Shown one piece after another: positions 2,958-13,758 of a stretch of DNA of 64,000 nucleotides. The notes beneath the pieces are model-generated. The model was not told where the DNA came from. It saw only the letters and a list, made by a program, of their open reading frames with translations, and made no database searches. Position numbers and translations under genes: made by a program. Source of the DNA: Mesorhizobium sp. B2-1-1 (GTDB lineage: Bacteria; Pseudomonadota; Alphaproteobacteria; Rhizobiales; Rhizobiaceae); the NCBI RefSeq assembly GCF_006442975.2, contig NZ_CP083954.1, positions 372,001 through 436,000 of the forward strand, given 5' to 3'. Every line of letters starts with the position of its first letter. The stretch's first letter is position 1.

Positions 2958-4283
2958 ATGAGCAGCGGCTTTTTCGGCGACATCCAGAAGATCAAATATG
3001 AGGGGCCGGATTCGGCTAATCCGCTGGCTTACCGGTTCTACAACCCGGACGAGCTGGTGGCCGGCAAGCGGCTGGAAGACCATCTGCGCTTCGCCGTCGC
3101 CTACTGGCATTCCTTCGCCTGGCCGGGCGGCGATCCGTTCGGCGGCCAGACCTTCGATCGGCCGTGGTTCCCCAAGGCCGGCGGCATCGACACGATGGAA
3201 CTGGCAAAACTGAAAGCAGACGTCGCCTTCGAGATGTTCTCGCTGCTCGGCGCGCCCTATTTCTGCTTCCACGATGCCGACGTGCGGCCCGAGGGCAAGG
3301 ATTTTTCGGAAAGTTCCGCGCGCCTCGACGAGATCGCGGACTATTTCGCCACCAAGATGAAGCAGACTGGCGTCAAGCTCTTGTGGGGCACGGCGAACCT
3401 GTTCTCGCACCGCCGCTTCATGTCGGGCGCCGCGACAAACCCCGATCCGGATGTGTTTGCCTATGCGGCGGCGACGGTGAAGAGCTGCATCGACGTCACC
3501 AAGCGGCTGAAGGGTGAGAACTATGTGCTTTGGGGCGGACGTGAGGGCTATGAGACGCTGCTCAACACCGACCTTGCCCGCGAGCAGGAGCAGGCCGGCC
3601 GTTTCCTCAACCTCGTCGTCGACTACAAGCACAAAATCGGCTTCAAAGGCACGATCCTGATCGAGCCGAAGCCGCAGGAACCCACAAAACACCAGTACGA
3701 CTACGATGTCGCGACCGTCTATGGCTTCCTCAAGCGCTTCGGCCTGGAGAAGGAGGTCAAGCTCAACATCGAGCAGGGCCACGCCATCCTCGCCGGCCAT
3801 TCCTTCGAGCACGAGCTGGCGTTGGCCAATGCGCTCGGCATCTTCGGCTCGATCGACATGAACCGCAACGACTACCAGTCGGGCTGGGACACCGACCAGT
3901 TCCCCAACAATGTGCCGGAGATGGCCCTGGCCTATTACCAGATCCTGCAGGCGGGCGGCTTCAAGACCGGCGGCACCAATTTCGACGCCAAGCTGCGCCG
4001 CCAGTCGCTCGATCCGCAGGACCTGCTGATCGGCCATATCGGCGGCATGGATGCCTGCGCGCGCGGCCTGAAGGCAGCCGCCAAGATGGTCGAAGACAAG
4101 GCGCTGTCGGCTCCACTCGCCGAGCGCTACGCAGGCTGGAACAGCGGCGAGGCCAAGGCGATGCTTGCCGGCAAGCGCACGCTGGAGGACATCGCCGAGC
4201 GCGTGGTGAAGAAGAAGATCGAACCGCAGCCGCGCTCCGGCCGTCAGGAACTGCTGGAAAACATCGTCAACCGCTACGTGTAA
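2958..4283 (+). CDS. xylA: Xylose isomerase
   Basis: Interconverts D-xylose and D-xylulose in the cytosol, feeding xylulokinase. The 441-residue protein is a class II xylose isomerase: it carries the catalytic His/Asp segment [12 protein letters not shown], the metal-ligand motif [17 protein letters not shown], and the conserved [18 protein letters not shown] and [20 protein letters not shown] segments. The ATG follows a GAGAGGAAGGAAATCC ribosome-binding region. Length and motifs are those of an intact enzyme. No xylose transporter or XylR gene is present in the window. Confidence 0.97.
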
Positions 4284-4857: not shown

Positions 4858-5838
4858 TCAACCCCGGCGTAGCCTGACCGGGGCTTCACCGAAAGCTCTT
4901 GAAAACGCCCTCGAAAATGCCGCGGCGGATGAAAATCCGGTCCGCCCGGCAATGTCGGCCATGGCCACTCTGGTGTCGATCACCAGCCGCCGCGCAGCGC
5001 CCAGGCGCAGCCTGAGATAGTAGGCGCCGGGCGTCTCGCCGATCGACTTGCGGAAGATGCTCTCCAGTGTCCGTGCCGTAACCCCGGCGCGCTTTGCCAC
5101 GGCGGCGACCGTCAACGGCTGGTCCACATGCGCTTCCATCAGCCGGATGGCTTGCGCCAGGCGCGGATCATAGCCGTCTAGCCGGCCAAGCGAGACCAGG
5201 GGCTGAGCGTCGGTGGCCGCACGGGCCTGATCGTAGATGAAGACGCTGGCCACATCGAGCGCCACGGCCATGCCGAGGCGGGTGCGAACGAGGTGCAGCA
5301 TCAGGTCGAAGGTGGGCGAGGCGCCACCGGAGGTGAAGACCGGCCCGTCGATGACGTAACGGTCCGGGCGGACGTCGACGCCCGGAAAGGCCGACGAGAA
5401 ATCCTCCATGTCTTCCCAGTGGGTGGTGGCGCTGCGGCCTTCGAGCAAGCCGGCCCGCGCGACCAGCCATGTACCGGCCTCGACGCCGCCGCAGGCGCGC
5501 GCCGAACGGGCGGCGCGGCGCAGGCCCGAGAGCAGAGCCGACGTCGCATAATTCTGCGTGCCGAAACCGGCGACGACGACAAGAACGTCGGTCGGTTCGG
5601 CCGCGTCGAAGCGGCCGCTGACCGCCACTGGCAGGCCGCAAGTGGTGACCGGCGCCTCGCCGGTTACGGAAACCAGCTTGAAATCGAACAATGTCTCGCC
5701 GGAGATGCGGTTGGCGGCGCGCAGCGGGTCGACCGCCGAGGCCACGCACATGATGGACGAGCCGGAAAACACCAGCATCGTCACCTTGAGCGGCAGACGC
5801 TCGGCGCGAAAGATCGTCAGTTTTTCGCCTTTAGTCAT
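4858..5838 (-). CDS. GlxA/CdhR-family AraC-type transcriptional regulator
   Basis: A 326-residue regulator with two domains: an N-terminal DJ-1/PfpI-like (class I amidotransferase-like) sensor domain, residues about 15-185, with the family hallmark LLEGRSATTHWEDMEDF, and a C-terminal AraC helix-turn-helix pair, residues about 225-320 (LTVAAVAKRAGVTARTLESI, then MADIAGRTGFSSAAAFSRAF). This is the architecture of CdhR, the regulator of carnitine dehydrogenase in Pseudomonas. It is transcribed divergently from the BKACE gene with about 80 bp between start codons, so it very probably controls the carnitine operon. Start at 5838 is chosen because the longer frame runs into that shared promoter region. 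Confidence 0.88.
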   Translation of the reverse strand: MTKGEKLTIFRAERLPLKVTMLVFSGSSIMCVASAVDPLRAANRISGETLFDFKLVSVTGEAPVTTCGLPVAVSGRFDAAEPTDVLVVVAGFGTQNYATSALLSGLRRAARSARACGGVEAGTWLVARAGLLEGRSATTHWEDMEDFSSAFPGVDVRPDRYVIDGPVFTSGGASPTFDLMLHLVRTRLGMAVALDVASVFIYDQARAATDAQPLVSLGRLDGYDPRLAQAIRLMEAHVDQPLTVAAVAKRAGVTARTLESIFRKSIGETPGAYYLRLRLGAARRLVIDTRVAMADIAGRTGFSSAAAFSRAFSRAFGEAPVRLRRG

Positions 5839-5917: not shown

Positions 5918-6835
5918 ATGCCGCTTGCGATGAACCGTGAGGTTTTCATTACCTGTGCCGTGACCGGGTCCGGCGGCACGCAGGACCGCAGCCCGCATGT
6001 GCCGCGCTCGCCCAAAGAGATCGCCGATTCGGCCATCGACGCGGCCAAGGCGGGGGCGGCGATCGTGCATTGCCATGTGCGCGATCCCGAGACCGGCAAG
6101 CCCAGGCGCGACGTTCATCTCTACCGCGAGGTGACCGAGCGCATCCGCGAGGCAGACGTCGACGTGGTGCTGAACCTTACCGCCGGCATGGGTGGAGACA
6201 TGGTGTTCGGCTCGCCCGAAGCGCCGCTGCCGCTGAATGAAAAGGGCACCGACATGGGCGGCGCCACCAACCGCATGGAGCATGTGCGCCAGTGCCTGCC
6301 GGAGATCTGCACGTTGGACTGCGGCACCATGAACTTCGCCGAGGCCGACTATGTCATGACCAACACACCCGGCATGCTGCGCGCCATGGGCGGCATGATG
6401 ACCGCGCTCGGCGTCAAGCCGGAGATCGAGGCCTTCGACACAGGCCATCTGTGGTTCGCCAAGCAGTTGGTCGAGGAACAGGTTCTGAAGCCGGATGCGC
6501 TTGTGCAGCTTTGCATGGGCGTGCCATGGGGGGCGCCTGACGACCTCAACACCTTCATGGCCATGGTCAACAACGTGCCGTCGACCTGGAGCTGGTCGGC
6601 CTTTTCGATCGGCCGCAACCAGATGGCCTATGCCGCCGCCGCAGTGCTGGCCGGCGGCAATGTCCGCGTCGGTCTCGAAGACAATCTCTGGCTCGACAAG
6701 GGCGTGCTTGCCACCAACGCGCAGCTGGTCGAACGTGCCGCCAGCATCGTCACCAATCTCGGCGCCAGGATTCTGGGGCCGGAGGAAGTGCGCAGGAAGC
6801 TCAACCTCACCAAGCGGGCGCCACTAGCGGCATAA
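5918..6835 (+). CDS. Beta-keto acid cleavage enzyme (BKACE), likely 3-dehydrocarnitine:acetyl-CoA trimethylamine-transferase type
   Basis: A 305-residue TIM-barrel enzyme of the BKACE (formerly DUF849) family, which condenses a beta-keto acid with acetyl-CoA to give acetoacetate and a new CoA ester. Visible hallmarks are the N-terminal strand VFITCAVTGSGG, the zinc-binding HCHVRDPETGKPRRD, MNFAEADYVMTNTPGMLR, and the C-terminal GGNVRVGLEDNLWLDKG. Next to carnitine dehydrogenase the expected substrate is 3-dehydrocarnitine, giving betainyl-CoA plus acetoacetate. Start chosen at 5918 because GGGAGGAGAG precedes it. It heads the operon; the HD gene follows after 22 bp. Confidence 0.88.
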   Translation: MPLAMNREVFITCAVTGSGGTQDRSPHVPRSPKEIADSAIDAAKAGAAIVHCHVRDPETGKPRRDVHLYREVTERIREADVDVVLNLTAGMGGDMVFGSPEAPLPLNEKGTDMGGATNRMEHVRQCLPEICTLDCGTMNFAEADYVMTNTPGMLRAMGGMMTALGVKPEIEAFDTGHLWFAKQLVEEQVLKPDALVQLCMGVPWGAPDDLNTFMAMVNNVPSTWSWSAFSIGRNQMAYAAAAVLAGGNVRVGLEDNLWLDKGVLATNAQLVERAASIVTNLGARILGPEEVRRKLNLTKRAPLAA

Positions 6836-6857: not shown

Positions 6858-7481
6858 ATGGCTACCGTAAAATTCACGGCGATGAAGGATGGCGACAGGG
6901 AAGACTACGAATTCCTGACCGCGCACGAGATCGACTATGCAGCCAGGACCGGCGAGCGGCTGCTCGACGCGCTGGTGCAGCTCGATGAGGGCCTGTCGGG
7001 CTACAAGATCACCCGGCTCGGCCATTCGCTGCAGGCGGCGACGCGCGCCTGGCGTGATGGCGCCGACACCGACTGGATCGCCTGCGCGCTCCTGCACGAC
7101 ATCGGCGACATCTACGCACCCTACAACCACGACGAATACGCCGCGTCGATCCTGAAGCCTTTCGTGCGCGAACAATGCACCTGGGTGGTGGAGAAGCACG
7201 GCGATTTCCAGCGCCTCTACTATGCCCATCATCTTGGCGGCAACCGCCATGCGCGCGACCGCTTCGCCGGTCATGCCTATTTCGACGATTGCGACCAGTT
7301 CTGCGAGCGCTGGGACCAGTCGAGCTTCGACCCCGACTACGAGACGCTGCCGATCGAGTTCTTCCGGCCTTTCGCGCTCGAAGTCTTTGCCCGCAAGGCC
7401 TACGACCCATCAGTGATCCGCATGGGCGAGCGCGTGCCTCTGACGGATCCACAAACAGCCGCCAAAAGAACCGGAGCCTGA
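6858..7481 (+). CDS. HD-domain protein, possible MIOX/PhnZ-like diiron oxygenase
   Basis: A 207-residue protein in the middle of the carnitine operon. Candidate metal ligands appear in the order His56, His80-Asp81 (in CALLHDIGD), His91, His114 and Asp153, the H...HD...H...H...D set of HD-fold diiron oxygenases such as myo-inositol oxygenase and the phosphonate oxygenase PhnZ. Ordinary HD phosphohydrolases often lack the two middle histidines. The segment WDQSSFDPDYETLP near the C-terminus is strongly patterned. GGGAGGGTCGAT precedes the start. The next gene begins 2 bp after its stop. Activity is unknown: oxygenase on a trimethylammonium substrate, or a phosphatase/phosphodiesterase, are both open. 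Confidence 0.75.
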   Translation: MATVKFTAMKDGDREDYEFLTAHEIDYAARTGERLLDALVQLDEGLSGYKITRLGHSLQAATRAWRDGADTDWIACALLHDIGDIYAPYNHDEYAASILKPFVREQCTWVVEKHGDFQRLYYAHHLGGNRHARDRFAGHAYFDDCDQFCERWDQSSFDPDYETLPIEFFRPFALEVFARKAYDPSVIRMGERVPLTDPQTAAKRTGA

Positions 7482-7483
7482 CC

Positions 7484-8578
7484 ATGAGCATCATCAACAA
7501 GGCGGCCGCCATCGGCGGCGGTGTCATCGGCGCAGGCTGGGTGGCGCGCCTGCTCTTGAATGGCATCGACGTGTCGATCTTCGACCCTGATCCCGAGGCC
7601 TCGCGCAAGGTCTCAGAAGTGATGAAGGGCGCGCGCCGCGCCTACAAGCAGATGGTTCCGGGCGGCCTGCCGAAAGAAGGCAGGCTGACCTTCGCCAAGA
7701 CCATCGCCGAGGCGGTGGCCGATGCCGATTTCATCCAGGAGAGCGTGCCGGAACGGCTCGACCTCAAGCATAAGGTCCTGTCCGAGATCGATATCCACGC
7801 GCCGGCCAACGCCATCGTCGGCTCGTCCACATCAGGCATCAAGCCGACCGACATGCAGGTGGCGATGAAAAAACACCCGGAGCGGCTTGTCGTCGGTCAC
7901 CCGTTCAACCCGGTCTATCTCCTGCCGCTGGTGGAAATCGTCGGCGGTGACCAGACATTCCCCGAGGCGGTCGAGGTCGCCAAGGAGATCTATGCCTCGA
8001 TCGGCATGAAGCCTGTCGTCATCCGCAAGGAGATTGAAGCCTTCGTCGGCGACCGCCTGCTGGAAGCCGCCTGGCGCGAGGCGCTGTGGCTGATCAAGGA
8101 CGGCATCTGCACCGTCGAGGAACTGGACGACATCATGCGCTATGGCTTTGGCCTGCGCTGGGCACAGATGGGCATGTTCCAGGTCTATCGCGTCGCCGGC
8201 GGCGAAGCCGGCATGCGCCACTTCATGGCGCAGTTCGGCCCCTGCCTGAAATGGCCGTGGACCAAGCTGATGGACGTACCGGAGTTCAACGACGAACTGG
8301 TCGACCTGATCGCCACGCAGTCGGACGACCAGGCGCATGGCCTGTCGATCCGCGAACTGGAAAAGATCCGCGACGATAATCTGGTCGCCATCATGGATGC
8401 GCTCTCGAAGCAGAACAAGGGCAAGGGCTGGGGCGCCGGCGCCCTGCACAGGGACTATAGGAAGCAGTTGGCCAAGCTGGCGGCGAAAAAGCCGGCCGCC
8501 TCCAAGGCGGCCGAGAAGGCGAAGGCATCGAAGCCGGTGAAGAAAGCCGAAAAACCGAAGAAAAAGAAGAAAGGCTGA
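7484..8578 (+). CDS. L-carnitine 3-dehydrogenase (3-hydroxyacyl-CoA dehydrogenase fold) with lysine-rich tail
   Basis: Oxidises L-carnitine with NAD+ to 3-dehydrocarnitine. The 364-residue protein has an N-terminal Rossmann domain (AAIGGGVIGAGWVARLLL, residues about 8-25, acidic FDPD ending the second strand), VGHPFNPVYLLPLVEIVGG, and the carnitine-dehydrogenase-like MRHFMAQFGPCLKWPWTKLM in the helical domain. Some rhizobial enzymes carry a fused C-terminal thioesterase domain. Here, after about residue 330, the chain becomes a low-complexity Lys/Ala/Pro tail ending KPKKKKKG. It lies between the HD protein and the acyl-CoA dehydrogenase with gaps of 2 and 4 bp, so translation is probably coupled. 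Confidence 0.88.
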   Translation: MSIINKAAAIGGGVIGAGWVARLLLNGIDVSIFDPDPEASRKVSEVMKGARRAYKQMVPGGLPKEGRLTFAKTIAEAVADADFIQESVPERLDLKHKVLSEIDIHAPANAIVGSSTSGIKPTDMQVAMKKHPERLVVGHPFNPVYLLPLVEIVGGDQTFPEAVEVAKEIYASIGMKPVVIRKEIEAFVGDRLLEAAWREALWLIKDGICTVEELDDIMRYGFGLRWAQMGMFQVYRVAGGEAGMRHFMAQFGPCLKWPWTKLMDVPEFNDELVDLIATQSDDQAHGLSIRELEKIRDDNLVAIMDALSKQNKGKGWGAGALHRDYRKQLAKLAAKKPAASKAAEKAKASKPVKKAEKPKKKKKG

Positions 8579-8582
8579 GACC

Positions 8583-9746
8583 ATGGATTTCGGTCTGTCG
8601 GAGGAACAGAAGCTCATTGTCGAGACGACGCGCGCCTTCGTCGAGAATGAGCTTTACCCCCATGAGCGCGAGGTCGAGCGCACCGGCGTGCTGCGCCGCG
8701 AACTGATCGAGGAGCTAAAGGCCAAGGCGATCGAAGCCGGTCTCTATGCCGCCAACATGCCGGCCGATGTCGGCGGCGCGGGGCTCGATACGGTGACCTG
8801 GCTGCTCTACGAGAAGGAACTCGGCCGCGCCAACTACGCGCTGCACTGGACCTGCGTCGCGCGCCCCTCCAACATCCTTTTGGCCGGCACGCCGGAGCAG
8901 CGCGAAAAATATCTGTTCCCGTGCATCCGTGGCGAGAAATGGGATTGCCTGGCGATGACCGAGCCGGGCGCCGGCTCCGATCTGCGCGGCATGAAGGCGA
9001 CCGCCGTGCAGGACGGCGACGACTGGGTATTGAACGGCACCAAGCACTTTATCTCCCACGCCGACCTCGCCGACTTTGCCATCGTCTTCATGGCCTCGGG
9101 CGAAGAGGATTCGCCGCGCGGCAAACGCAAGAAGATCACCGCCTTCTTCGTCGACAAGGGCACCAAGGGCTTCACGGTGCGCGACGGCTACCGCAACGTC
9201 TCGCATCGCGGCTACACCAACGCCATCCTCGAATTCGACGATTGCCGCCTTCCGGCAAGCCAGGTGTTGGGTGAAGTCCACAAGGGTTTCGACGTCGCCA
9301 ATTCCTGGCTCGGCGCCACCCGCCTGCAGGTCGGCGCCACCTGCCTCGGCCGTGCCGAGCGGGCGCTTGGCCATGCGGTCGAGTACGCCGCGCAGCGTCA
9401 GCAATTTGGCCAGCAGATCGGCAAGTTCCAGGGCGTGTCGTTCAAGCTCGCCGACATGGCAACCGAACTCAAGGCCGCGGACCTGATGGTGTTCGAAGCC
9501 GGCTGGAAGTACGATCAGGGCACCGTCACCGACCAGGACATGGCCATGGCCAAGCTGAAGGCCACAGAAATGCTGGCTTACGTCGCCGACGAAGCGATCC
9601 AGATCCATGGCGGCATGGGGCTGATGGACGACCTGCCGCTGGAGCGCATCTGGCGCGACGCCCGGGTCGAGCGCATCTGGGAAGGCACGTCGGAAATCCA
9701 GCGCCACATCATTTCGCGGGCGCTGCTGCGCCCGTTCGGGGCCTGA
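8583..9746 (+). CDS. Acyl-CoA dehydrogenase, probable gamma-butyrobetainyl-CoA dehydrogenase
   Basis: A 387-residue FAD-dependent acyl-CoA dehydrogenase. It has the family signatures CLAMTEPGAGSDLRGMKATA (flavin/substrate loop), an FGQQIGKFQ segment, EAIQIHGGMGLMDDLPLERI and the C-terminal IWEGTSEIQRHIISRALL. Beside a CaiD-like hydratase and carnitine dehydrogenase, the best guess is oxidation of gamma-butyrobetainyl-CoA to crotonobetainyl-CoA; the reverse, CaiA-like crotonobetainyl-CoA reduction, is less likely in a catabolic aerobic operon. Tightly packed: 4 bp after the dehydrogenase gene and 3 bp before the CoA ligase gene. Confidence 0.85.
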   Translation: MDFGLSEEQKLIVETTRAFVENELYPHEREVERTGVLRRELIEELKAKAIEAGLYAANMPADVGGAGLDTVTWLLYEKELGRANYALHWTCVARPSNILLAGTPEQREKYLFPCIRGEKWDCLAMTEPGAGSDLRGMKATAVQDGDDWVLNGTKHFISHADLADFAIVFMASGEEDSPRGKRKKITAFFVDKGTKGFTVRDGYRNVSHRGYTNAILEFDDCRLPASQVLGEVHKGFDVANSWLGATRLQVGATCLGRAERALGHAVEYAAQRQQFGQQIGKFQGVSFKLADMATELKAADLMVFEAGWKYDQGTVTDQDMAMAKLKATEMLAYVADEAIQIHGGMGLMDDLPLERIWRDARVERIWEGTSEIQRHIISRALLRPFGA

Positions 9747-9749
9747 TCC

Positions 9750-11828
9750 ATGCACAAACTTGAACGCCTTCTGCGCCCTAAATCGATCGCCGTGTTCGGC
9801 GGCGCGCAGGCCGCCGCGGTCGTGGCACAGTCGATCAAGATGGGCTTTGCCGGCGAGATCTGGCCGGTGCACCCGAGCAAGGAAGAGGTCGCCGGCCGCA
9901 AGGCCTATCGTTCGATCGCCGATCTGCCCGGCGCGCCGGACGCCGCCTTTGTCGGCGTCAACCGACACCTGACCATCGACGTGATCAAGGCCTTGGCCGA
10001 ACGCGGCGCCGGCGGGGCCGTCTGCTTTGCCGCCGGTTTCCTCGAAACCGAAGCCTATGACGCGCATGGCGAGCGCCTGCAGGCCGAACTCGTCGCCGCC
10101 GCTGGCGAGATGCCGATCATCGGACCGAACTGTTACGGCCTGATCAACTATGCCGACGGCGCGCTTTTGTGGCCCGACCAGCATGGCGGCATAAGATTGG
10201 CCGACGGCGGCAAAGGGGTGGCCATCATTACCCAGTCGTCCAACATCGCCATCAACATGACGATGCAGAAGCGCGGCCTGCCGATCGCCTTCCTGATGAC
10301 CGCCGGCAACCAGGCGCAGACCGGCCTCTCCGAAATGGCGCTCGGCCTGATCGAGGACGAGCGCGTCAGCTCGCTCGGCCTGCACATCGAGGCTTTCGAT
10401 TCGGTAGCCGGCTTCGAGCGGCTGGCGGCACGGGCGAGGGAATTGAAAAAGCCGATCATCGCCATGAAGGTCGGCCGCTCCGAACAGGCCAGGCAAGCGA
10501 CCGTCTCGCACACCGCGTCGCTCGCCGGCTCGGACGCAGCGTCCGGGGCCTTCCTGAAACGGCTCGGCATCGCGCGCGTCGATTCCATCCCCGCCTTCAT
10601 CGAGGCGCTGAAGCTGCTGCATGTCACCGGTCCGCTGCCCGGCTACAGCCTGTCATCGATGAGCTGTTCGGGCGGCGAGGCTTCGGTCATGGCCGACAGC
10701 GCCGAAGGCCGCTGGGTCAACTTCCCGGTGCTGACGGAAGAACACCGTGCCCACGTCAAGTCGACGCTCGGGCCGCTGGTCGCGGTCGCCAATCCATTGG
10801 ACTACCACACCTTCATCTGGAACAACGAACCGGCAATGACCGCCACCTTCACCGCCATGGTGTCGGGCGGCTTCGACCTCAACATGCTGGTGCTCGACTT
10901 CCCGCGCCCGGACCGCTGCTCGGTGACCGACTGGTGGGCAACGCTGCGCGCCTTCGAATCGGCGCTCAAGACCAACAAGGCGCATGGCGCGATCGTCTCG
11001 TCGCTGCCCGAGAACCTGCCCGAGGAATACACCGCCGAGCTGATGGCGCGGGGCATGGTGCCGCTGTTCGGCATTTCCGAAGCGATGGATGCCGCCCAGG
11101 CGGCCGCCTTCATCGGCTGGGCCTGGCGCGAGCCGCAGGCGCAGCCGGTCGACACCTCCGCTTCCGGCGCTGCCGGCGGCGAGCATGTCACGCCTGACGA
11201 GGCGCAAGCCAAGGCGCGGCTGATCAAGGCCGGGCTGCCGGTGCCCAAGGGCGAGCGCGCCGACAGTGCCGTCGAGGCGGTGATCTCGTCCATGGCGCTC
11301 GGCTTCCCCGTGGCGCTGAAGGCGCTAGGCGTCACCCACAAATCCGAGGTCGGCGCCGTCAGGCTCAACCTCAGGGACGCCGAATCCGTCAGCACCGCCG
11401 CTCACGACCTTTTGCCGCTCGGCACCGGCCTTTATGCCGAGCGCATGGTGCGCGACGGCGTCGCCGAGCTGATCGTCGGCTTCACCCGCGATCCGATGTT
11501 CGGCGCTGTCATGACGCTGGGCACCGGCGGCGTGCTGGTCGAATTGCTGCGCGACAGCGTCACCTTGATGCTGCCGGCGACCCGCGACGACATCGAGGCA
11601 GCACTTCGCGGTCTCAAACTGTTCCCGCTGCTCGAAGGCTATCGCGGTCGGCCGAAGGCCGACGTCCAAGCTGCCATCGACGCCATCGCGGGCATTGCTG
11701 CCTTCGTGCAGACGAATGCCGGCGAGATCGAGGAACTCGACATCAATCCGCTGATCGTCTGCAGCGAGGGCAAGGGCGCCTGGATCGCCGATGCGCTTTT
11801 GGTGCTGGGAGAGAACAAGAATGCCTGA
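9750..11828 (+). CDS. Acyl-CoA synthetase (NDP/ADP-forming), probable betaine-CoA ligase
   Basis: A 692-residue fused ADP-forming acyl-CoA synthetase. Order of parts: CoA-binding Rossmann domain (PKSIAVFGG, residues about 8-130), succinyl-CoA-ligase-like domain with GPNCYGLINY and TQSSNIAINM, the phosphohistidine segment TVSHTASLAGSDAASG, and a C-terminal ATP-grasp domain (LKALGVTHKSEVGAVRLNL, LDINPLIV near the end). It is expected to make the CoA thioester of gamma-butyrobetaine or crotonobetaine. Known carnitine operons often use AMP-forming CaiC instead. This class is reversible, so it might also release carnitine from carnitinyl-CoA with gain of ATP. Its stop overlaps the hydratase start by 8 bp. 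Confidence 0.85.
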   Translation: MHKLERLLRPKSIAVFGGAQAAAVVAQSIKMGFAGEIWPVHPSKEEVAGRKAYRSIADLPGAPDAAFVGVNRHLTIDVIKALAERGAGGAVCFAAGFLETEAYDAHGERLQAELVAAAGEMPIIGPNCYGLINYADGALLWPDQHGGIRLADGGKGVAIITQSSNIAINMTMQKRGLPIAFLMTAGNQAQTGLSEMALGLIEDERVSSLGLHIEAFDSVAGFERLAARARELKKPIIAMKVGRSEQARQATVSHTASLAGSDAASGAFLKRLGIARVDSIPAFIEALKLLHVTGPLPGYSLSSMSCSGGEASVMADSAEGRWVNFPVLTEEHRAHVKSTLGPLVAVANPLDYHTFIWNNEPAMTATFTAMVSGGFDLNMLVLDFPRPDRCSVTDWWATLRAFESALKTNKAHGAIVSSLPENLPEEYTAELMARGMVPLFGISEAMDAAQAAAFIGWAWREPQAQPVDTSASGAAGGEHVTPDEAQAKARLIKAGLPVPKGERADSAVEAVISSMALGFPVALKALGVTHKSEVGAVRLNLRDAESVSTAAHDLLPLGTGLYAERMVRDGVAELIVGFTRDPMFGAVMTLGTGGVLVELLRDSVTLMLPATRDDIEAALRGLKLFPLLEGYRGRPKADVQAAIDAIAGIAAFVQTNAGEIEELDINPLIVCSEGKGAWIADALLVLGENKNA

Positions 11829-12603
11829 CGTCATTTCGACCCGCCGTGAAGGCTCGATCCTCGAGGTCACGCTCGATCGGCCCAAGGCCAACGCCATCGA
11901 CCTGAAGACCTCTCGGCTGATGGGCGAGACCTTCAAGGCGTTTCGCGACGACCCCGGCTTGCGCGTCGCCATCATCAAGACCGCCGGCGACAAGTTCTTC
12001 TGCGCCGGATGGGACCTGAAGGCCGCCGCCGGCGGCGACGCCGTCGACGGCGACTATGGCGTCGGCGGCTTTGCCGGGCTGCAGGAACTGCGCGACTTGA
12101 ACAAGCCTGTCATCGCCTGCGTAAACGGCATGGCGGTGGGGGGCGGCTTCGAGCTGGCGCTGTCCTGCGATCTCATCTACGCCTCCGATCACTCCTCCTT
12201 CGCATTGCCCGAGATCCGCGCCGGCACGCTTGCCGATGCCGCGACCATCAAGCTGCCGAAGCGCATCCCCTATCATGTCGCCATGGACCTTTTGCTCACT
12301 GGCCGCTGGATGGACGTTGCCGAGGCGCATCGCTGGGGCCTGGTCAACGAGGTGCTGCCGAAGGAGAAGCTGGAGGACCGCGTCTGGGAGATCGCCCGCC
12401 TGCTCGCCAGCGGCCCGCCGCTGGTCTTCGCCGCGATCAAGGAAACCGCGCGGGTGGCCGAAGCGCTGACTTTCCAGGACGCTATGAACAGGGTGACGCG
12501 CCGGCAGTTGCCGACGGTCGATGCGCTGTACGGTTCCGAGGACAATATGGAAGGGTTCCGGGCTTTTGCGGAGAAGCGGGAACCGGTGTGGAAGGGGAAG
12601 TAA
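11821..12603 (+). CDS. caiD: Crotonobetainyl-CoA hydratase (CaiD-like)
   Basis: A 260-residue crotonase-fold enzyme that hydrates crotonobetainyl-CoA to L-carnitinyl-CoA. It matches Escherichia coli CaiD closely from memory: GSILEVTLDRPKANAID, DDPGLRVAIIKTAGDKFFCA, GWDLKAAAGG, GGFAGLQELRDLNKPVIACV, GMAVGGGFELAL (oxyanion-hole loop) and the ending FAEKREPVWKGK. The catalytic region around SFALPEIRAG is present. Start 11821 overlaps the ligase gene by 8 bp, consistent with translational coupling. A repeat element follows its stop and separates it from the hydrolase gene. Confidence 0.92.
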   Translation: MPDVISTRREGSILEVTLDRPKANAIDLKTSRLMGETFKAFRDDPGLRVAIIKTAGDKFFCAGWDLKAAAGGDAVDGDYGVGGFAGLQELRDLNKPVIACVNGMAVGGGFELALSCDLIYASDHSSFALPEIRAGTLADAATIKLPKRIPYHVAMDLLLTGRWMDVAEAHRWGLVNEVLPKEKLEDRVWEIARLLASGPPLVFAAIKETARVAEALTFQDAMNRVTRRQLPTVDALYGSEDNMEGFRAFAEKREPVWKGK

Positions 12604-12819: not shown

Positions 12820-13758
12820 ATGACCGACTACAGCAAACTCATCGATGCCGAGACCCGGGCCTTCATCGAGCGGACCAATTCCTATTACCCGCCGGATACG
12901 ATCGACTACACGATTGCCGAACAGCGCGAGATCTATGACCGCATGTGCCGGGAGTTCTTTGCCGGCTATCCCGAGGGAGTGACAGCGGAAACCACCGCTA
13001 TTGCCGCACAGGCGTGCAATATCCCGATCCGCATCTATCGCAGCGCCCCGCAGGCAGTGGCAACGGTGCTCTATTGCCACGGCGGCGGGTTCATCCTTGG
13101 CGGGCTCGACAGCCATGACGACGTTTGCGCCGAGCTATGCGGCCGCACCGGTTATGACGTCGTCTCGGTCGACTACCGGCTGGCGCCGGAGCATCTGCAT
13201 CCGGCCGCGTTTGACGACGCGATGAACGCCTTCGAGTGGGCGGCAGCCACCCGCGATCATCCCATCCTGCTCTGCGGCGACAGCGCCGGCGGCAATCTCT
13301 GCGCCGCGGTCAGCCATGCGACGCGCGGCCATGCGAAGAAACCGATCGGGCAGGTGCTGATCTATCCCGGGCTCGGCGGCGACCGTTCGCGTGGCTCCTA
13401 TCTGAAGCATGCCGAAGCGCCTATGCTGACCACGCGCGACCTCGAATTCTACAAGCACATCCGTACCGGCGGCGTGGACCAGACCGGCGACATCACGCTT
13501 CAGCCGCTGGCCGACGCCGATTTCGCCAACCTGCCGCCGACCGTGCTGATCACCGCCGAGTGCGATCCGCTGTCGTCGGACGGCGAGGCCTATCGCGACC
13601 GCATCGTGGCGGGCGGCGGGCGAGCCACTTGGTTCGAAGAAAAAGGGCTTGTGCACGGCTATCTCAGGGCGAGGCACACGGTCGGCCGCGCCCGCGCCAG
13701 CTTTACCCGCATCGTCGAGGCGGTGTCGGCGCTCGGCAAAAGCGAGTGGATCTGGTGA
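12820..13758 (+). CDS. Alpha/beta hydrolase of the hormone-sensitive-lipase (HSL) esterase family
   Basis: A 312-residue esterase with the oxyanion motif LYCHGGGFILGG (residues about 85-95), nucleophile elbow CGDSAGGNLCAA and a C-terminal EKGLVHGYLRA carrying the catalytic His. Substrate unknown. It follows the carnitine operon on the same strand after the 170-bp repeat, so it may be read through from it. Since no classical thioesterase is present in that operon, this enzyme could in principle hydrolyse betainyl- or carnitinyl-CoA, but HSL esterases usually act on short carboxylic esters. That link is inference only. Confidence 0.85.
   Translation: MTDYSKLIDAETRAFIERTNSYYPPDTIDYTIAEQREIYDRMCREFFAGYPEGVTAETTAIAAQACNIPIRIYRSAPQAVATVLYCHGGGFILGGLDSHDDVCAELCGRTGYDVVSVDYRLAPEHLHPAAFDDAMNAFEWAAATRDHPILLCGDSAGGNLCAAVSHATRGHAKKPIGQVLIYPGLGGDRSRGSYLKHAEAPMLTTRDLEFYKHIRTGGVDQTGDITLQPLADADFANLPPTVLITAECDPLSSDGEAYRDRIVAGGGRATWFEEKGLVHGYLRARHTVGRARASFTRIVEAVSALGKSEWIW

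Follow-up and report, generated by a model that had tools for sequence, protein, structure and literature searches.

The 64,000-nt stretch of the Mesorhizobium sp. B2-1-1 genome analysed here (contig NZ_CP083954.1, forward-strand positions 372,001 to 436,000; hereafter the window, with positions counted from its first nucleotide) carries, inside a carnitine operon, a gene for a 207-residue HD-domain protein (6858..7481, + strand, ATG start). On the basis of its residues and modelled structure, we propose that this HD protein represents an undescribed subfamily of diiron oxygenases, with PhnZ, TmpB and MIOX as its sister enzymes, and that its substrate is most likely a trimethylammonium compound, with L-carnitine cleavage as the specific proposal; we give this combined reading an even chance of being correct. 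Its parts differ in strength. Membership of the oxygenase class is probable, a trimethylammonium substrate is slightly favoured and L-carnitine itself as the substrate is a conjecture that we regard as rather doubtful.

First, the protein has the residues expected of the metal ligands. HD oxygenases are described as sharing the set H...HD...H...H...D (PMC8177086). The initial annotation had read a MIOX/PhnZ-like set of this kind from the open reading frame, and in the translation all of its residues lie where it placed them: the predicted first ligand H56 (codon 7023..7025, + strand, as for all codons here), the HD pair H80-D81 (7095..7100), the third and fourth histidines H91 (7128..7130) and H114 (7197..7199), and the predicted last ligand D153 (7314..7316). 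All 141 members of the family that were aligned have the same residue at each of these six positions. In a pairwise alignment with a TmpB encoded elsewhere in the same genome, the H, HD, H and H of that TmpB stand opposite H56, H80-D81, H91 and H114; H80-D81 also pairs with PhnZ, and H56 falls opposite residue 34 of the PhnZ chain. D153 meets the Asp of the PhnZ 'AWD' only in a second aligned stretch, and because that stretch itself scores below zero, this pairing rests mainly on invariance.

Second, the predicted fold is closest to PhnZ, TmpB and MIOX, with structural Z scores of 16-17, compared with at most 8.1 for all other structures compared. Together with the ligands, this supports an HD oxygenase of the MIOX/PhnZ/TmpB kind. 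The protein is distinct from each of the three enzymes: it scores 32.8 bits with the model for PhnZ, the (R)-2-amino-1-hydroxyethylphosphonate oxygenase (PDB 4mlm, 4mln, 4n6w and 4n71; TIGR03276, cut-off 214.6), 22.1 bits with that for TmpB, the (R)-1-hydroxy-2-trimethylaminoethylphosphonate oxygenase (PDB 6npa; NF049941, cut-off 300), and 19.4 bits with the MIOX family PF05153 (cut-off 25), with 15-16% identity to MIOX (PDB 2huo and 2ibn). It exceeds the Pfam HD cut-off (23.5 versus 22 bits), no NCBIfam model reaches its own cut-off, and a Pfam scan returned HD and, weakly, MIOX only, with no 4HBT (hotdog) domain.

Third, the gene sits in a conserved operon ordered beta-keto acid cleavage enzyme (BKACE), HD protein, carnitine dehydrogenase (CDH), acyl-CoA dehydrogenase, NDP-forming acyl-CoA synthetase and enoyl-CoA hydratase, with a divergent AraC regulator. 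BKACE (5918..6835, + strand; PF05853, 330.3 bits), predicted to cleave 3-dehydrocarnitine, ends with TAA at 6833-6835; 22 bp separate it from the HD start codon, and the HD stop codon (7479-7481) lies 2 bp before the CDH ATG at 7484, exactly the gaps first annotated. BKACE, HD and CDH genes are co-oriented and in the same order in all 80 public-genome loci compared, 77 of them titled Mesorhizobium, with gaps of 18-105 bp between the BKACE and HD matches and 0-7 bp between HD and CDH. All six ligands and Y49 are kept in every one of these Mesorhizobium-type loci, and the HD gene is under purifying selection; the median ratio of non-synonymous to synonymous substitution rates (dN/dS) against the window, over 80 comparisons, is 0.086 for HD, 0.060 for CDH and 0.049 for BKACE. 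The nearest named protein, from M. helmanticense, is 92% identical, and 31 of 37 genomes in a genus sample have a match of at least 90% identity, contexts having been read for part of these only.

HD oxygenases have been reported to abstract hydrogen from a CH-OH carbon, PhnZ yielding glycine and TmpB glycine betaine (PMC8177086, PMC10574752). By analogy, the HD protein would bind two irons, presumably of mixed valence, through H56, H80, D81, H91, H114 and D153, and would use O2 without an outside reductant to remove hydrogen from the CH-OH carbon. The neighbouring C-C (or C-X) bond would be cut and the CH-OH carbon would become a carboxylate; a small hydroxylated trimethylammonium compound, Me3N+-CH2-CH(OH)-X, would give glycine betaine. 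The aromatic residues W109, F117, Y121 and W152 are conserved and might, with Y49, make up a cage for the trimethylammonium group. The expected CH-OH metabolites of the operon are L-carnitine and carnitinyl-CoA. We name L-carnitine because it is the only free operon metabolite of this form, and propose its direct cleavage because it shares with the (R) substrate of TmpB the Me3N+-CH2-CH(OH)- unit and, by our own assignment, its spatial arrangement. Cleavage between C2 and C3 would, on this conjecture, yield glycine betaine and a two-carbon acid, expected to be glycolate, as a CoA-free, accessory step beside the CDH-BKACE route. Two further candidates, 3-dehydrocarnitine and trimethylaminoacetone (the latter reported to form from carnitine in Citrobacter; PMC12482172), were set aside because neither has a CH-OH hydrogen.

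Relatives of the HD protein are widespread: at least 7,839 were found at E 0.001 among 8,000 candidates scored, a count that may include other HD oxygenases. Matches at E 1e-20 or better occur in 109 of 385 Alphaproteobacteria genomes, 41 of 249 genomes of the order and 40 of 299 of the phylum (the samples overlap), and family members are present even in genomes of 1.2-1.4 Mb; no relative was found in 50,697 phage records at E 1e-5. Names given to relatives include HD domain-containing protein, predicted HD phosphohydrolase, peptidase or inositol oxygenase family protein, and PF05153 is annotated on some in a precomputed table. Contexts were read in 166 loci outside the Mesorhizobium carnitine operon. 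Stretches around HD were taken for 140 loci (L121-L260) and for a fresh set of 20 (L288-L307), leaving out 21 matches of the class set, 12 of the order set and 6 of the phylum set; the HD gene was called in 141 of 144 loci, or 137 of the 140 non-carnitine ones. As a control we used 110 of 125 genes sampled from the same loci, out of 584 candidates.

Some of these contexts favour the proposed chemistry. In 21 of the 166 loci, a 2-oxoglutarate oxygenase gene is found no more than 400 bp from HD and on its strand (TauD type in 10, PhyH type in 8 and a third type in 3), and such genes neighbour HD in 17 of 110 cases compared with at most 3 of 110 for control genes. The pairing resembles the arrangement known from PhnY/PhnZ and TmpA/TmpB, in which one enzyme hydroxylates and the next cleaves. 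For the five TauD-type neighbours scanned, the best model was TmpA and the second gamma-butyrobetaine dioxygenase, both below cut-off. Four of the 166 loci have a GbcA-like Rieske gene within 400 bp. A TauD, CDH, BKACE, choline-binding protein or GbcA-like gene lies within 5 kb in 25 of 166, a count for which no control was run. On the plasmid pF045_1 (labelled P. aeruginosa), a TauD gene ends 1 bp before HD. Downstream of HD come genes for a choline-binding protein, a choline dehydrogenase and an aldehyde dehydrogenase, for the last of which betaine-aldehyde dehydrogenase is the best curated model, below cut-off. On a Rhizobium megaplasmid, the HD gene (69.6% identity) is accompanied by genes for a BetI-like regulator, a choline dehydrogenase, a choline-binding protein and a betaine-aldehyde-dehydrogenase-like aldehyde dehydrogenase. 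Further, L149, from a 1.6-Mb genome, combines HD with a 4HBT thioesterase on the opposite strand, BKACE and a gene nearest L-carnitine dehydrogenase (below cut-off), and at L243 and L245, which belong to one genus, HD accompanies a CDH-like gene (39-40%) and an ABC transporter of the branched-chain type.

A number of observations weigh against the proposal. In 145 of the 166 loci, none of the three types of 2-oxoglutarate hydroxylase queried was found on the HD strand at a distance of up to 400 bp, and among the fresh 20 only 2 have such a partner, both PhyH. Rieske domains are hardly commoner beside HD than among control genes (5/110 versus 3/110). No quaternary-amine marker lies within 5 kb in 141 of 166 loci, which limits the trimethylammonium inference, and even relatives of 67-75% identity stand in varied contexts. 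The carnitine connection that the initial annotation had drawn is firm inside Mesorhizobium, and outside it extends to the marker-bearing minority only. The operon can also do without the gene: one Mesorhizobium genome (G660, locus L261) has it without HD, the BKACE and CDH matches being 93 bp apart, and operons of other genera running BKACE, CDH, acyl-CoA dehydrogenase, acyl-CoA synthetase and enoyl-CoA hydratase (L265, L267, L269, L270 and L271) likewise have no HD gene. HD is therefore an accessory gene, gained in the Mesorhizobium lineage or lost elsewhere, and carnitine breakdown is presumably independent of it. In L-carnitine the leaving carbon would have no hydroxyl, unlike in MIOX. To our knowledge, none of the known HD oxygenases breaks a C-C bond adjoining an unhydroxylated CH2. 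Finally, the YxxE loop that binds the substrate amine in PhnZ and TmpB (PMC8177086) is missing; its place is taken by L46-S47-G48-Y49 (LSGY; codons 6993..7004, + strand), and Y and E stand at the aligned places in 4 of 141 relatives.

A different possibility is that the protein is an HD oxygenase for a substrate unrelated to carnitine, such as a small hydroxylated acid or a phosphonate, with its location due to chance or shared regulation. Homologues lie in many contexts: class II aldolases make up 7 of 110 neighbours, and genes of the urate-oxidase, AlkZ-like, M20 peptidase and glutathione-synthesis types also occur next to HD. The carnitine operons examined outside Mesorhizobium, as well as L261, have no HD gene. 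By contrast, the order and frame held in all 80 loci under purifying selection, and the additional carnitine- or choline-type contexts among relatives, argue against coincidence. We consider this alternative a serious but less probable one.

An ordinary HD metal-dependent phosphohydrolase or nucleotidase is improbable. The Pfam HD match, an HDIG match in 13 of the 55 family members scanned (hand-picked from 241) and the name predicted HD phosphohydrolase on some relatives are what such an enzyme might be expected to have, but the structural similarity drops steeply outside the oxygenases and the third and fourth histidines of the dinuclear set are invariant.

Marginally less probable still is a second TmpB-type enzyme, which would cleave (R)-1-hydroxy-2-trimethylammonioethylphosphonate or a similar phosphonate to glycine betaine and phosphate. 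The predicted fold is close to TmpB, and TmpA-like enzymes adjoin some relatives. However, the TmpB model score is far below cut-off, the YxxE loop is absent, and a canonical TmpA/TmpB pair, in which the stop codon of one gene overlaps the start codon of the next, is already encoded by the same genome, outside the window (about 3,048,112-3,049,850 of G000:C1; L002 284-2022). That TmpA scores 554.3 bits (cut-off 400) and also exceeds the gamma-butyrobetaine dioxygenase cut-off; that TmpB scores 324.4 bits (cut-off 300) and has the loop, as YLGE. Neither TmpA nor a 2-oxoglutarate hydroxylase gene was found among the operon genes scanned. We therefore set this candidate aside.

The initial annotation had also suggested a hydrolase filling a missing thioesterase step. 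The carnitine 3-dehydrogenase of the operon (7484..8578, + strand) matches NF005716 with 592.3 bits (cut-off 592) over profile positions 1-346 of 495 and ends without the C-terminal thioesterase part. Fused CDH-thioesterases share the operon setting with the HD gene; their thioesterase part is 4HBT-type, not an HD domain. The window genome encodes a stand-alone 4HBT_2 protein of 161 aa (G000:C1:3010980-3011414), which aligns with the fused model over positions 344-495 at 120 bits. Among 20 CDH loci, selected from far more numerous matches by their high identity and by their length, unfused or fused, five have a fused CDH-thioesterase (L262, L263, L264, L266 and L268), one has a separate thioesterase gene after CDH (L276) and one has no BKACE (L280). 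In the other 13 (L261, L265, L267, L269-L275 and L277-L279), BKACE lies next to an unfused CDH; the stretches examined, some of them short, yielded no HD gene and none of the six thioesterase types queried. From the stand-alone gene and this survey, the genome probably does have the thioesterase step, and the presence of HD does not vary with it. A betainyl-CoA or acyl-CoA hydrolase replacing the absent part of CDH is thus the least probable explanation and is rejected: although CDH is truncated relative to the model and most known HD proteins are described as phosphohydrolases (PMC8177086), the genome has its own 4HBT_2 gene, L149 carries both a 4HBT and an HD gene, and in most of the CDH loci surveyed neither was found in the stretch examined.

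The roles of the remaining operon genes are predicted from curated models. All are on the + strand except the regulator. Acyl-CoA dehydrogenase (8583..9746), present in 80 of 80 sister loci, may act as a gamma-butyrobetainyl-CoA dehydrogenase, and the NDP-forming acyl-CoA synthetase (9750..11828) may be a CoA ligase for gamma-butyrobetaine or carnitine, both from profile matches. The enoyl-CoA hydratase (11821..12603, its start taken from gene calls in sister loci) has crotonobetainyl-CoA hydratase as its best curated match, at 314.6 bits (cut-off 500). The nearest curated model to the divergent AraC-family regulator (4858..5838, - strand, start uncertain) is GbdR, at 205 bits (cut-off 480). 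Synthetase, hydratase and regulator are each present in 79 of 80 loci. An alpha/beta hydrolase of the hormone-sensitive-lipase type (12820..13758; 76 of 80 loci) follows and is possibly an acylcarnitine esterase comparable to P. aeruginosa HocS. Upstream of the operon, xylose isomerase xylA (2958-4283, + strand) scores above cut-off.

Other arrangements recur among the relatives. Some Mesorhizobium genomes carry two HD genes, the second being about 70% identical (L222, L223, L224 and L244), with an amidohydrolase-cluster gene upstream in L222-L224 and an additional small gene nearby in L222 and L224, the L222 member being NirD-like (below cut-off). Adjacent HD genes occur in pairs at L169, L170, L173 and L182 (37-46% identical to the Mesorhizobium protein), possibly as a two-subunit or two-substrate arrangement. 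In genomes of 1.2-1.3 Mb, HD runs with glutamine-amidotransferase and glutamate-cysteine-ligase-type proteins (L131), and the domain tally adds glutathione-synthetase-type domains (L131 and L134). At L124, L126 and L128, an AlkZ-like gene precedes HD and genes overlapping by 4 bp follow, including a polysaccharide-deacetylase-type protein (L126) and, from the domain tally, probably a urate-oxidase-type one. The class II aldolase-type neighbours (L164, L171, L176, L198 and L217-L219) are recurrent and unexplained by a trimethylammonium substrate.

Few HD oxygenases have been characterized, and those named in two reviews act on myo-inositol or phosphonates (PMC8177086, PMC10574752). A link between an HD oxygenase and carnitine was not found by title or abstract in the literature searched, most subscription papers lying outside the search. 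If the protein acts as proposed, its chemistry would be a variant of the known HD oxygenase kind. A larger possibility, which we regard as unlikely, is that L-carnitine cleavage by this enzyme bypasses CDH, BKACE and the thioesterase, and that it belongs to a large family making betaines from hydroxylated quaternary amines, perhaps counted as phnZ. Reported estimates of the share of ocean cells with phnZ lie between less than 1% and about 20% (PMC10574752); if the family is not for phosphonates, such counts by homology may be inflated. For a widespread family that bears generic names, the Mesorhizobium carnitine operon provides a short list of substrates.
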